DNA from: Bacteroidales bacterium
GTDB lineage: Bacteria > Bacteroidota > Bacteroidia > Bacteroidales > Muribaculaceae
Direction: 5' to 3'
DNA length: 52,395 bases
Assembly: GCA_020859845.1 (NCBI GenBank)
Contig: JAJBVL010000011.1
Coordinates: 1 to 52,395, forward strand
Positions 2,211 through 38,328 of the stretch are shown one piece after another (the stretch's first letter is position 1; each line of letters begins with the position of its first letter). Under the pieces are notes generated by a model. The model worked only from the letters and a program-made list of their open reading frames with translations, made no database searches and was not told the origin of the DNA. The position numbers were made by a program, and so were the translations under genes.

Positions 2211-3344
2211 TTAGCGTTTTTGAAAATCTCCTGAAACAACGCAGATAGCCTCTGTACTTATATCAGTCAGATGTGAGAGATTGACCGTATTGGCAAACCA
2301 ACCGCGATTAAGCCCAATCACTTTCCATAGATAGAAATTTTGCTCCAAGACGGATGTTTGCGTCATACCTTCATCTAATCCGTAGGTTAAGTAAAGTCCC
2401 ATTTGATGTGGGGAGTTGTCTGGCTCAAAATATATAGTTTCTCCTACAGTGCAGTTAGTACCTATGCTTACCATATGATCAACAGGTAACCTATATTCCA
2501 TTTGATAATTAGATTTTGGAGGAATAGGTACGATTCTTTGGGAATAAGTAACTGTGGTGGTGGAATTGGAAGAACTACCTCCAACATTTACTCCATTAGC
2601 TAATGTGCCTACTGCCCCTCCTACTCCCAAGGCTCCAGTAACACTTCCTAAGTTGACCGCACCTCCTGTAGTCTTACCACTGGAGGATATTGTTGTGGAG
2701 GGGGTATACAGTGGGGTTGCTTTTCCATTGTTCCTTATGAAAGTGTTCTCTAAGTCAACATAAATAATATGGTCAGTAAGATTCATTATTACGGGTAGCG
2801 GTGTGCTACTGCCATACATTAATGTATTTTTGGTCCTAAAATCAGCCTCGCTTACATTACCCATGGGAATATAATAAATACGTATCACACCATCTGTTAC
2901 CACCGAGTTGTCCATCACTCGGTATTGCCCAATTCCTGCTTTGGCTTTTTTGTCCTTAGGCTTGTCGGCAAACTTAAAGTATTCTTGGCTATAACGCTGG
3001 ATAAACTCTCTATTTATAGCGTCAATCGAATCCTGGTCTAAGACAGGCTCTATAGTGACTACCTCTGAAGAGGGAACAGACTGATTGGCTTGAGCTTCGA
3101 AGGTCTCTTTCTCGCCGTTCTCGTAGTTGATGGCGAGGACATCGGCATGGGCGGCTGTGTAGGTAGGGCCATCAGGATTTGAGGCCTTCTTGTATTTGAT
3201 TTCCGTCAGTGTAATCTCCGTCACCTTGCCGTTAATCACGTCGCCATTGCGCATTACTATGATATCGTCGGCAAAAAGTGCCACCGAGCAGGCCAAAATC
3301 ATACATAGGGATGCGACGGCTACATAGATATTTTTACTTTTCAT
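2211..3344 (-). CDS. Secreted protein of tandem paralogous family (copy 3)
   Basis: This 377-residue protein shares the DDIIVMRNGDVINGKV module, the KPKDKKAKAGIGQYRV linker and the Gly/Ser-rich segment with the 1080-2186 product. Its signal peptide is unrelated in sequence (MKSKNIYVAVASLCMILACS). Its C-terminus also diverges and ends in SGDFQKR. It lies 44 bp downstream of the 3389-4036 gene on the same strand. It is the first of at least three family members in a row. The family function is unrecognised; a surface or periplasmic location is inferred from the signal peptide. Confidence 0.8.
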   Translation of the reverse strand: MKSKNIYVAVASLCMILACSVALFADDIIVMRNGDVINGKVTEITLTEIKYKKASNPDGPTYTAAHADVLAINYENGEKETFEAQANQSVPSSEVVTIEPVLDQDSIDAINREFIQRYSQEYFKFADKPKDKKAKAGIGQYRVMDNSVVTDGVIRIYYIPMGNVSEADFRTKNTLMYGSSTPLPVIMNLTDHIIYVDLENTFIRNNGKATPLYTPSTTISSSGKTTGGAVNLGSVTGALGVGGAVGTLANGVNVGGSSSNSTTTVTYSQRIVPIPPKSNYQMEYRLPVDHMVSIGTNCTVGETIYFEPDNSPHQMGLYLTYGLDEGMTQTSVLEQNFYLWKVIGLNRGWFANTVNLSHLTDISTEAICVVSGDFQKR

Positions 3345-3388
3345 TTTTAAGAATAATGGGGATGAATATTTTTAAGAAGAAAGGGGGA

Positions 3389-4036
3389 TTAATATTCTAC
3401 GTACCCTTTGCCATAGCAGTAAGAGCACATTTCATGACGGTGGCCAGTAGGAACCTGTTGATTGCATTGACCGCACCATTTCTTCTGTCCGGAACTGGGG
3501 TGAAGACGTATCACTTGCCCAGTGCCATTACATACGGTGCATTTATGCTGGGAACGGGTCGATGAAGGTGTTGTAGTGGTGGCAGGAGTCGCAGGTACAT
3601 ATACTCCTCCTCCATTACCATTCCCTACAGCAGGAGCGTTAGGGTCGCGGATAAGAGATGAAGTGGCTTGGCTTGTGGGAGCGGTAGCCTTGCGAAAAGT
3701 ATAGACCACAGAGCCATCACTATTGGTCATCTTCAACTCGCTTTTGTCGGAGTTGAATCGGAAGAATGATGGGTATCCAAGATACGACCCACCCTTATAT
3801 GTGGTTTGCTGGGAGTCTGAACTTGTTTTCTTCAGTGTGCCATGTCCAACTCCGACTCCTGAGTTGTCGCACTCATAACAGATATCACCGATGAACTTTA
3901 CGAATTGTCCTCCTGAGATGTTATCAGTTTTAGTTGTGCCATTTTGGGTAATGGATACCAACCGATAATAACAAAGGTTCTCTGCATGACTAACAAAGCC
4001 AACGGCAATCATTATGAAAAGAAGTAAAATCCGCAT
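3389..4036 (-). CDS. Secreted protein with DnaJ-like cysteine motifs
   Basis: The protein has 215 residues and a signal peptide (about 1-18). The central part is rich in polar and beta-prone residues, followed by a low-complexity Pro/Thr linker. The C-terminal 50 residues hold three paired-cysteine motifs: CTVCNGTG, CGQC, and CSYCYGKG. The first and last fit the CxxCxGxG zinc-binding repeat of DnaJ. A J-domain is absent, so this is not a co-chaperone in the usual sense. Zinc binding, or disulphides if it is periplasmic, is inferred. Its stop codon is 1 bp from the start of nothing else: the upstream gene ends at 4038, so the two are almost certainly co-transcribed. Confidence 0.7.
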   Translation of the reverse strand: MRILLLFIMIAVGFVSHAENLCYYRLVSITQNGTTKTDNISGGQFVKFIGDICYECDNSGVGVGHGTLKKTSSDSQQTTYKGGSYLGYPSFFRFNSDKSELKMTNSDGSVVYTFRKATAPTSQATSSLIRDPNAPAVGNGNGGGVYVPATPATTTTPSSTRSQHKCTVCNGTGQVIRLHPSSGQKKWCGQCNQQVPTGHRHEMCSYCYGKGYVEY

Positions 4037-9387: not shown

Positions 9388-9467
9388 CCTTATTATAGAA
9401 AGACAGAATATAGAAAGACAGAAAGGTAGTAGGACAGACTACTTGATAAAAATACTATTACTATAGA

Positions 9468-22922: not shown

Positions 22923-22954
22923 CAAAGGTAATCATTCGCTTTTGAAAATGCAAC
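22923..22954 (-). promoter_or_regulatory. Promoter of the ATPase gene, overlapping a degenerate repeat
   Basis: Minus strand: GTTG (22954-22951), 20-bp spacer, TACCTTTG (22930-22923). The spacer and the -33 element fall inside a decayed copy of the 33-bp repeat (22935-22953). The start codon at 22912 is 11 bp beyond the -7 box, so the leader would be only a few bases. Confidence 0.65.
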
Positions 22955-23220
22955 TTTTAAACAGAAAATCGCATTTGAAAAAGTAAAATATACACTAAGA
23001 TTCGCATTTGTAAGTGCGAAATAGGGGAGTAGATTCGCATTTGGAAGTGCGAAATAAGAGTGCAGATTCGCATTTGGAAGTGCGAAATAGGAGTGGATAT
23101 TCGCATTTTGAAGTGCGAAATAGGAGTGCAGATTCGCATTTTGAAGTGCGAAATAGGAGTGGATATTCGCATTTGGAAGTGCGAAATAGGAGTGGATATT
23201 CGCATTTGGAAGTGCGAAAT
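22935..23220. repeat. Array of nine near-palindromic 33-bp repeats
   Basis: Units start at 22935, 22968, 23001, 23034, 23067, 23100, 23133, 23166 and 23199, exactly 33 bp apart. The core is TTCGCATTTGGAAGTGCGAA, a near-palindrome with 9-nt arms containing one G-T pair and a 2-nt loop. Variation falls mainly in the two loop bases and the linker. Seven copies are clean; the two nearest the ATPase gene are degenerate but still in phase. The array also reads as an open frame of 11-residue repeats on the minus strand (MRISTPISHFQ), a by-product of the 33-bp period. It is not a CRISPR: there are no unique spacers. Confidence 0.9.
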
Positions 23221-23230
23221 ATGGGAAAGT

Positions 23231-24331
23231 CTAAGGTTTTAGAGTGGAGAGATAATAGCAGGGGGAGTGGTATTGATTCAAGCGTAGAGTATCTTGAGCC
23301 ACGTTGAGATTATGGAGATTGAAGAGTGGAAGGGCGTTGGCCAAGAATTGACGGCGTTGCTGCTCGGCGATGCCTGAAAGAGGTTGTTGGGCATCGCGCA
23401 GGGTAAACCCATCGGTATGGCCGTTGAGGGGAGAATACACAAAGACGAGTTGATAAGAAGCTTCATCGATAGATGGACGCCCCAGCTGGTCGCGACTAAG
23501 ATGTAGGCGCACCATCGCCCCTCCGCGGGTGTCAACCGTCCGCATGGCCGAGATGAAGTTGCCCAAGGAATATATCAGAAATTGGCGCTGTCCAGTGGAG
23601 TCGGTTGAGAGTTCCATAGGTTGCACCACGTGGGGATGGCTGCCGATAATCATATCCACGCCCAGCTCCTTAAGATAGCCTGCAAGCGACTGCTGCGAGC
23701 GCGAGGGCAAGAGATGGTATTCCTCGCCCCAATGGACGGCTACGGCTACGAGCTCCGCTCCTAGATTGCGAGCTTCAGCAACGTCGGAGGCCATCAGCTG
23801 GCGGTCGATATAGTCGACTATAGCCTCGCCCTGCACTGTAAAGCCATTAGTGCCGTAAGTATAATTGAGTATTGCCACCTTGAAGCCTCCTACGTCGACA
23901 ATCATTGGGGAAGATTGGGAGCGATGGTGGGTGTCGTGATAAATACCCGTATGGGGTATGGAAAGGCTGTCGAGAGTAGTGATAGTGCGATGCAGCCCAC
24001 GGTCGCGGCGGTCGAGTATGTGGTTGTTGGCGCAGAGAAGCAGGTCAAAACCCACATCGCGAAGGGCCTCTGCATAGCTATCTGGAGCGCAAAAGGCAGG
24101 ATAGCCTGTAAAGGGGGCGCCGCCGAGAGGGGTTTCCAAATTGGCCACTGCATAGTCGGCCGAGGCTATGTAATCGGCTATGCTATCAAAGTAGTGGGCG
24201 TAAGAATAACTGTCGTCGGACGCATTGCGTGCCGACGACAGTTGTGCTTGGTGCTGCATAGCGTCTCCCACCCATACCATGGAAGCCGAGTCGGGAGCGA
24301 GGAGCAGGGAGGATAAGAGCAGGCCGAGCAT
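23231..24331 (-). CDS. CapA/PgsA-family metallophosphatase-like protein
   Basis: This 366-residue protein belongs to the CapA (poly-gamma-glutamate synthesis) family, a calcineurin-like fold. Visible metal-site motifs: VWVGDAM near the N-terminus, ANLETPLG, CANNHILDRRDRG, VAVHWGEEY and IGSHPHVVQP. A short hydrophobic N-terminus (MLGLLLSSLLLAP) suggests export. The family occurs widely outside polyglutamate producers, so the exact substrate is unknown. It is last in the panC-panD-ffh-folD-capA operon, 4 bp after folD. Its 3' end is next to the 33-bp array. Confidence 0.85.
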   Translation of the reverse strand: MLGLLLSSLLLAPDSASMVWVGDAMQHQAQLSSARNASDDSYSYAHYFDSIADYIASADYAVANLETPLGGAPFTGYPAFCAPDSYAEALRDVGFDLLLCANNHILDRRDRGLHRTITTLDSLSIPHTGIYHDTHHRSQSSPMIVDVGGFKVAILNYTYGTNGFTVQGEAIVDYIDRQLMASDVAEARNLGAELVAVAVHWGEEYHLLPSRSQQSLAGYLKELGVDMIIGSHPHVVQPMELSTDSTGQRQFLIYSLGNFISAMRTVDTRGGAMVRLHLSRDQLGRPSIDEASYQLVFVYSPLNGHTDGFTLRDAQQPLSGIAEQQRRQFLANALPLFNLHNLNVAQDTLRLNQYHSPCYYLSTLKP

Positions 24332-28524: not shown

Positions 28525-28571
28525 GACAGAGAGATAGAATTTAGAGAGACAGAATTTAGAGAGACAGAAGA
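28525..28571. repeat. Short tandem repeat (AGAGAGACAGAATTT-type, about 3 units)
   Basis: The gap between recR and the acetyltransferase gene is three near-copies of a 15-bp unit. A related unit (TAGAAAGACAGAA) occurs twice before thiL near 9400-9425. They look like slipped-strand repeats; no function is visible. Confidence 0.55.
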
Positions 28572-38280: not shown

Positions 38281-38328
38281 TCCCATCGGCAACAACCCCA
38301 ACAACCTCAACAACTCCAATAACCACAA

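Follow-up and report, generated by a model that had tools for sequence, protein, structure and literature searches.

A putative self-specific operator array at the promoter of a PDC-S01 ATPase gene in a Bacteroidales genome

AAA+ proteins with a winged helix include the Orc1/Cdc6 and ORC initiators, which act at repeated DNA sites (origin boxes), and autorepression by a DNA-binding protein acting on palindromic or tandem sites in its own promoter is a feature of toxin-antitoxin and iteron Rep genes. The present analysis concerns an array of near-palindromic units upstream of the gene for an AAA+ STAND-like ATPase (P0001), located in a stretch of 52,395 nucleotides from a Bacteroidales bacterium of the Muribaculaceae (contig JAJBVL010000011.1 of assembly GCA_020859845.1, positions 1 to 52,395), hereafter referred to as the window. 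Comparative analysis shows association of such arrays with the ATPase genes, a recurrent period, phase with the promoter, symmetry within the protein's own clade, sequences private to individual genes and covariation with the protein. The array is likely to be a self-specific operator array, whose ATPase is predicted to bind its own sites and autoregulate, with specificity diverging between the paralogues.

P0001 shares its combination of AAA+ and winged helix with the Orc1/Cdc6 and ORC initiators (2qby, 1w5t and ORC4 are among its matches), but its sites lie in the promoter of its own gene and no origin is implied. The archaeal AAA+ ATPases SSO1545 (2fna) and PABY2304 (2qen) have 17% and 16% identity to P0001, respectively. 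Unlike the operators of toxin-antitoxin and iteron Rep genes, arrays of the present kind belong to a STAND-like ATPase, comprise up to nine sites at 29, 32 or 33 bp and differ in their sites among the many paralogues of one genome. Regular short near-palindromic repeats are also a feature of clustered regularly interspaced short palindromic repeats (CRISPR), from which the array differs in having no unique spacers, in its phase with a promoter and in matching no Rfam family at gathering score.

PADLOC lists PDC-S01 as a phage-defence candidate, and P0001 and all 49 proteins of an AAA_14 alignment (A2) match it. One account portrays PDC-S01 as an ATPase with a fused PD-(D/E)XK-type domain (PMC12988326). 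In a rumen survey no other individual defence locus was as frequent, with 10,358 occurrences (PMC13356809), and PDC-S01 is called the fourth most common defence across prokaryotes, validation being pending for most PDCs (PMC12988326). The available parts of these two papers give no mechanism for PDC-S01, and their accounts of it mention neither a promoter array nor self-binding; likewise, the available parts of the open-access literature on DUF4143, PDC-S01 and winged-helix ATPase operators hold no description of such arrays. Winged-helix ATPases and operator arrays are each familiar components, but in the literature searched there appears to be no description of an array that is family-wide, promoter-phased and self-specific on this ATPase family.

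The array and its ATPase

The array comprises nine near-palindromic units at a fixed period of 33 bp (positions 22935-23220), seven of them good and two degenerate, the latter being the units nearest the ATPase gene (TTCGCTTTTGAAAATGCAAC and ATCGCATTTGAAAAAGTAAA). Tandem Repeats Finder (TRF) reports 22998-23221 with period 33, 6.8 copies, 92% matches and a score of 364, which together with the unit coordinates confirms the nine units at an unbroken 33-bp period described in an earlier note made from the sequence of the window. Column identities across the nine units are 0.78-1.00 in the core, 0.67 in one centre column and down to 0.44 in the spacer, in agreement with that note's picture of conserved core arms and a drifting loop. 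The seven good units are separated by spacers that closely copy one another, none being unique, so that CRISPR was rejected, as the note had done. The pattern TTCGCATTTNNAAGTGCGAA matches exactly in seven units and, with up to three mismatches, has the array as its sole location in the 2.9-Mb genome (the reversed-pattern control occurs in two places). A genome-scattered repeat was thus rejected, and the repeat family occurring away from ATPase genes, which the note had set against its own proposal, was not seen in this genome. An ordinary Rfam element was likewise rejected, since only two tRNAs in the window reach gathering scores and the array matches no Rfam family there.

P0001 matches AAA_14 (PF13173, E 3.6e-26) and six PDC-S01 models (best E 5.6e-22, by E value and not by PADLOC cut-offs). 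Its winged helix comprises approximately residues 262-315, with the recognition helix at 276-288. The designation of the ATPase as DUF4143-type in the earlier note fits the family, in which 45 of the 49 aligned AAA_14 proteins match PF13635 at E<=0.1, but not P0001 itself, which has the AAA_14 match and no PF13635 match at this threshold and is therefore not assigned to DUF4143 by the Pfam model. In a 12-member clade alignment the residues E333, D353, E363 and K369 are kept, and the C-terminal domain carries E-x-G-G-x-x-K, as against E-x-K in the PD-(D/E)XK motif.

Recurrence, promoter phase and covariation among AAA_14 genes

The genome to which the window belongs has 34 AAA_14 places above the Pfam cut-off. 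In the 500 bp upstream of 14 of these there is a repeat of 32-33 bp that scores above shuffles (one contig-end gene was unscored). The repeat sequence is private to each gene (in the sibling paralogue G000:C103:21504 it is TCGCAATTTTAGGCCGAATTTTGCGA), the exception being L011 and L019, whose shared repeat seems to belong to another kind. At E<=1e-15 the genome has 28 AAA_14 genes, the most among 34 genus genomes, the next having 10. The examination of related ATPase genes for upstream phased repeats, proposed in the earlier note, was performed on a genus set of 123 AAA_14 genes (122 from the genus search and one from the own genome), 11 of which have less than 300 bp upstream owing to contig edges and were omitted from the enrichment test. 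A tandem repeat with a lag of 31-34 and a score of at least 14 is present upstream of 40 of the remaining 112 genes, as compared to 3 of 345 control open reading frames (ORFs) and 0 of 96 downstream regions (Fisher p 5e-24). The control ORFs were taken from the own genome, including overlapping ORFs and the window itself, and one of the three control matches is therefore probably the array described here. The genus set includes 29 of the 34 own-genome places, and the other five have no 33-bp repeat above shuffles. TRF detected eight repeats of period 28-36 in a 378-kb control sample, none of them with a near-palindromic core as judged by eye. A phylum-wide search gave AAA_14 matches in 54 of 118 genomes; 29 loci were inspected (one, L363, was read in the wrong frame and is uninformative), and nine have an upstream tandem repeat with a score of at least 14, at periods of 22, 23, 33, 34, 36 and 42. 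The evidence for the strict 32-33-bp form thus comes mainly from this order.

Members of the protein's own clade, selected by protein similarity alone from the named genomes (80 loci), the order, the family and the genus, with four viral contigs added in the second set only, were scanned for two tandem near-palindromes at 28-36 bp. Such repeats exceed the 99% shuffle level in 127 of 179, and then in 163 of 231 (first pass), non-redundant members. The 163 arrays have periods of 33 bp (105 arrays), 32 bp (45), 29 bp (12) and 30 bp (1). The number of units varies from two to nine, the nine of the window being the maximum in the first set, where short arrays dominate (two units in 68 of 127, three in 41). 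Dyad-aligned units of 147 arrays show unit-to-unit identities of 0.68-0.95 over 10 bp on each side, about 0.6 at the two centre bases and 0.3-0.4 in the spacers. The half-site has T at positions 2-4 and 9-10 from the centre, and positions 5-8 differ among arrays and agree within one array. Complementary bases at positions +-4 to +-8 were counted in 32-41 of 50 arrays (13-22 expected from shuffles), and with the same choice of centre applied to shuffled units, 8 of 10 pairs are reached by 14 of 49 real units against 3.0 expected. The complementarity and strand-bias analysis was run twice, once after manual removal of 12 ambiguous arrays out of 58 and once with no exclusion, and the complementarity figures given here are from the latter run (50 arrays after removal of near-duplicates).

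The four viral-contig relatives have no array at score 14 (scores 9, 11, 9 and 12). The viral contigs L404 and L405 carry a clade AAA_14 gene (44% identity) with ACTTAACAGA-type sites recurring around the -7 box, likewise without an array at score 14.

The Bacteroides -7 consensus is TANNTTTGY (PMC12632263), and a TAnnTTTG box lies within 120 bp of the start in 96 of 118 genus AAA_14 genes, as against approximately 9 in shuffles. A dyad centre is found 11-19 bp upstream of this box, modulo the period, in 94 of 112 arrays and in 130 of 143 of a larger set (directly, without modulo, in 66 of 112), which indicates that the arrays are phased with the promoter and that the proximal operator tends to occupy the -33/-7 spacer. 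The 29-bp class (L051, L054 and others; 12 of the 163 arrays) keeps this phase, and in the window the dyad centre is 14 bp upstream of TACCTTTG. Helical phasing as the entire account of the arrays was rejected because 29-bp arrays exist, the period thus not always being near a whole number of turns.

Covariation of the repeat with the ATPase, for which the earlier note had asked, was examined at two levels. Among 42 arrays the mean repeat similarity is 19 above 60% protein identity, 12 at 50-60% and approximately 7 below (Mantel test, r 0.14, p 0.0015); the similarity tracks protein identity and drops with divergence, suggesting that the sites turn over fast. When the remainder of the protein is controlled for, half-site similarity still goes with the identity of the winged helix (partial r 0.081, reached in 3 of 500 permutations), and the reverse partial correlation is 0.044 (46 of 500 permutations). 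At the level of single residues, 14 residue-base pairs pass the family-wise 5% level among 125 representatives below 75% identity, eight of them in the winged helix, which makes up 14% of the columns. Of the 20 highest-ranked pairs, 11 are in the winged helix, and of the first 40, 17 (p 1.5e-5 and 6.7e-6, respectively). Residue 277, in the recognition helix, pairs with half-site position 6 as Arg-G (7 of 7), Asp-C (18 of 29), Asn-T (34 of 44; A on the partner strand) and Gln-T (5 of 5), P0001 itself having Asp277 with C at this position. Residue 281, one turn beyond, pairs with position 7 as Asp-C (6 of 6) and Asn-T (5 of 5), a pairing that fails the family-wise level. Both sets of pairings correspond to familiar residue-base preferences. 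The larger covariation set kept arrays with fewer than six palindromic pairs, which another analysis dropped. These results support covariation of the half-site bases with the winged helix of the ATPase, smaller or stricter tests being weaker.

Proposed mechanism and alternative explanations

The winged helix of the ATPase is envisaged to read each near-palindrome with one protomer per half-site, as the dyad and the residue-base covariation suggest. Because the proximal site lies in the -33/-7 spacer, ATPase bound there would be expected to keep RNA polymerase out and thereby repress the gene. The remaining sites, spaced at 32-33 bp (roughly three helical turns, and thus on almost one side of the DNA) or at 29 bp, would permit AAA+ protomers to bind cooperatively. 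They would also titrate the ATPase, whose level at its own promoter would stay low and buffered until some signal alters its ATP state or oligomerisation. As half-site specificity diverges quickly, the approximately 30 AAA_14 ATPases of one genome would be insulated and would not repress one another. The two-fold symmetric binding site and ATPase-repeat pair suggested in the earlier note thus find support, from comparison, in the form of a promoter-phased operator array. Each array becomes a predicted DNA ligand for its PDC-S01 protein, with a predicted recognition code in residues 277 and 269, perhaps also 281, and a PDC-S01 promoter should report the state of its protein. If true, many paralogous self-regulators of diverging specificity would coexist as a natural set within single genomes. 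A more speculative extension, to which we give low credence, is that PDC-S01, a very abundant candidate defence family, is a DNA-anchored guard: the STAND-like ATPase would sit, cooperatively oligomerised, on the array at its own promoter until phage takeover displaces it or changes its nucleotide state, leading to derepression and release of the activated ATPase, with the fast-evolving code keeping dozens of guards independent.

Several observations weigh against self-specific autoregulation. The evidence for it is comparative throughout, and the promoter-overlapping site could activate instead of repressing. No significant array is present in 68 of the 231 clade members, and support for a lone operator in array-less members is weak (8 of 59 as compared to 2 of 59). 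The dyad centre was chosen by maximising symmetry, many arrays from outside the clade show little or no dyad symmetry, and the scan rewards core identity, so that the contrast between core and spacer arises partly by construction. With respect to covariation, Glu277 has no preference (C5, T6, A9, G1), and 6 of the 14 passing pairs lie outside the bounded winged helix (L261, A92, I195, T114, K126 and P349), whose limits of 262-315 were drawn from the secondary structure of the model when the first covariation ranking was already known, L261 being counted outside. A paired-contrast test on 58 first-set pairs gives the winged helix 4 of the top 20 against 3.0, hence no enrichment, with D277-position 6 at p 0.034 at best. 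No pair exceeds the family-wise threshold among 63 representatives below 60% identity, and N315 with position 2 is the sole passing pair among 28 below 50%. In the larger set below 60% identity only L261 and F269 pass, both with position 8, while D277-position 6 falls just short (8.0 against a threshold of 8.1); K281-position 7 fails in both identity cuts of that set.

Among the alternatives, the array may be an assembly or nucleation platform along which the STAND-like ATPase oligomerises for its real job (for example, sensing phage takeover), the promoter overlap being secondary. The presence of as many as nine sites, beyond the needs of simple repression, the PDC-S01 match of P0001 and its structure matches, which include STAND, NLR and Avs proteins, are in favour of such a role, which is nevertheless unlikely in view of the predominance of two- and three-unit arrays and of the promoter phase, needless for a platform. 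Binding of the arrays by a separate, unlinked regulator, with the ATPase gene as a mere target, would accommodate the covarying pairs outside the bounded winged helix and the weak outcome of the stricter tests. This is quite improbable, as the site sequences differ among the paralogues of one genome, which a single regulator could hardly serve, and the bases covary with the ATPase's own winged helix.

A replication, partition or copy-number element is very improbable, and no support was found for the copy-number role offered in the earlier note. Iterons and ORC boxes offer a broad parallel to tandem sites bound by a winged-helix AAA+ protein, but the surroundings are chromosomal housekeeping genes (RadA, SpoU methylase, FolD, Ffh), the genome has 34 AAA_14 places and a search of plasmid and phage records with the array gave no match. 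Plasmid or phage iterons were accordingly rejected, a lone site in a viral contig being within a rough estimate of chance.

Scarcely any weight is given to units acting as RNA or single-stranded DNA hairpins. The arms do pair, and as RNA one of the strands of a unit reaches a folding energy of -7.4 kcal/mol, but the array is upstream of the -7 box of the ATPase and in phase with the promoter, and the strand common to both flanking genes has an A-C mismatch and a weaker fold (-5.4). RNA hairpins were rejected since arm mismatches have no clear strand bias (G-T 23 and A-C 17 in 50 arrays; 18 and 13 in the 38 kept). Neutral tandem duplication of the minisatellite kind, suggested by the identical spacers of some arrays, which imply local amplification, is equally hard to credit when position, period, phase and covariation recur over many genes with unrelated repeats, and the promoter phase is hard to reconcile with it; a neutral satellite was rejected as well.

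Feature coordinates and additional observations

The coordinates of the features are given in Table 1, in which the possible -33 element was placed using the usual -33/-7 spacing.

Table 1. Coordinates of the ATPase gene, putative operators and promoter elements in the window
Feature	Position	Strand	Description or basis
AAA+ STAND-like ATPase P0001, 404 aa	21698..22912	-	AAA_14 domain, winged helix, C-terminal alpha/beta domain, PADLOC PDC-S01
-7 promoter box TACCTTTG	22923..22930	-	consensus TAnnTTTG; ends 10 nt before start codon
Putative operator 1, proximal, degenerate	22935..22954	.	dyad centre 14 bp upstream of -7 box
Possible -33 element TTG	22951..22953	-	inside proximal operator half-site; inferred from sequence
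Putative operator 2, degenerate	22968..22987	.	unit alignment
Putative operator 3, TTCGCATTTGTAAGTGCGAA	23001..23020	.	genome pattern search
Putative operator 4	23034..23053	.	genome pattern search
Putative operator 5	23067..23086	.	genome pattern search
Putative operator 6	23100..23119	.	genome pattern search
Putative operator 7	23133..23152	.	genome pattern search
Putative operator 8	23166..23185	.	genome pattern search
Putative operator 9, distal	23199..23218	.	genome pattern search

The array is located between the ATPase gene and the 3' end of a PGA_cap gene (23231-24331, -), and thus also forms the 3' flank of the latter, which has the same direction as the ATPase gene. The ATPase is near none of 15 relatives of the PGA_cap gene (stretches of up to 1.5 kb, shorter at contig ends), and this comparison did not reveal insertion boundaries of the ATPase-array locus.

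Repeats of other kinds were observed near other AAA_14 genes. The 33-bp repeats of G000:C99 (L011, L019), GCGCTTCGCGC...AAAAGTCAA, occur near clustered AAA_14 genes and possibly constitute a separate repeat family; 26-bp TGGGCGGCTGAGGCAGCCGC repeats are also present near these genes. Upstream repeats of 22-24-bp period were found at L036, L037, G002:C4:54572, L360, L364, L370 and L386. The AAA_14 genes L010, L013, L018, L028 and L037 start within a few hundred bases of contig ends (G000 C111, C33, C25, C14 and C11, respectively), as if the assembly broke at or near upstream arrays. The lone viral site mentioned above is at L167:2117-2136, in a 436-kb contig. Other short tandem repeats in the window detected by TRF, at 3343-3396, 9394-9423, 28528-28569 and 38290-38328 (periods 26, 15, 15 and 9/18, respectively), are unlike the array in sequence.
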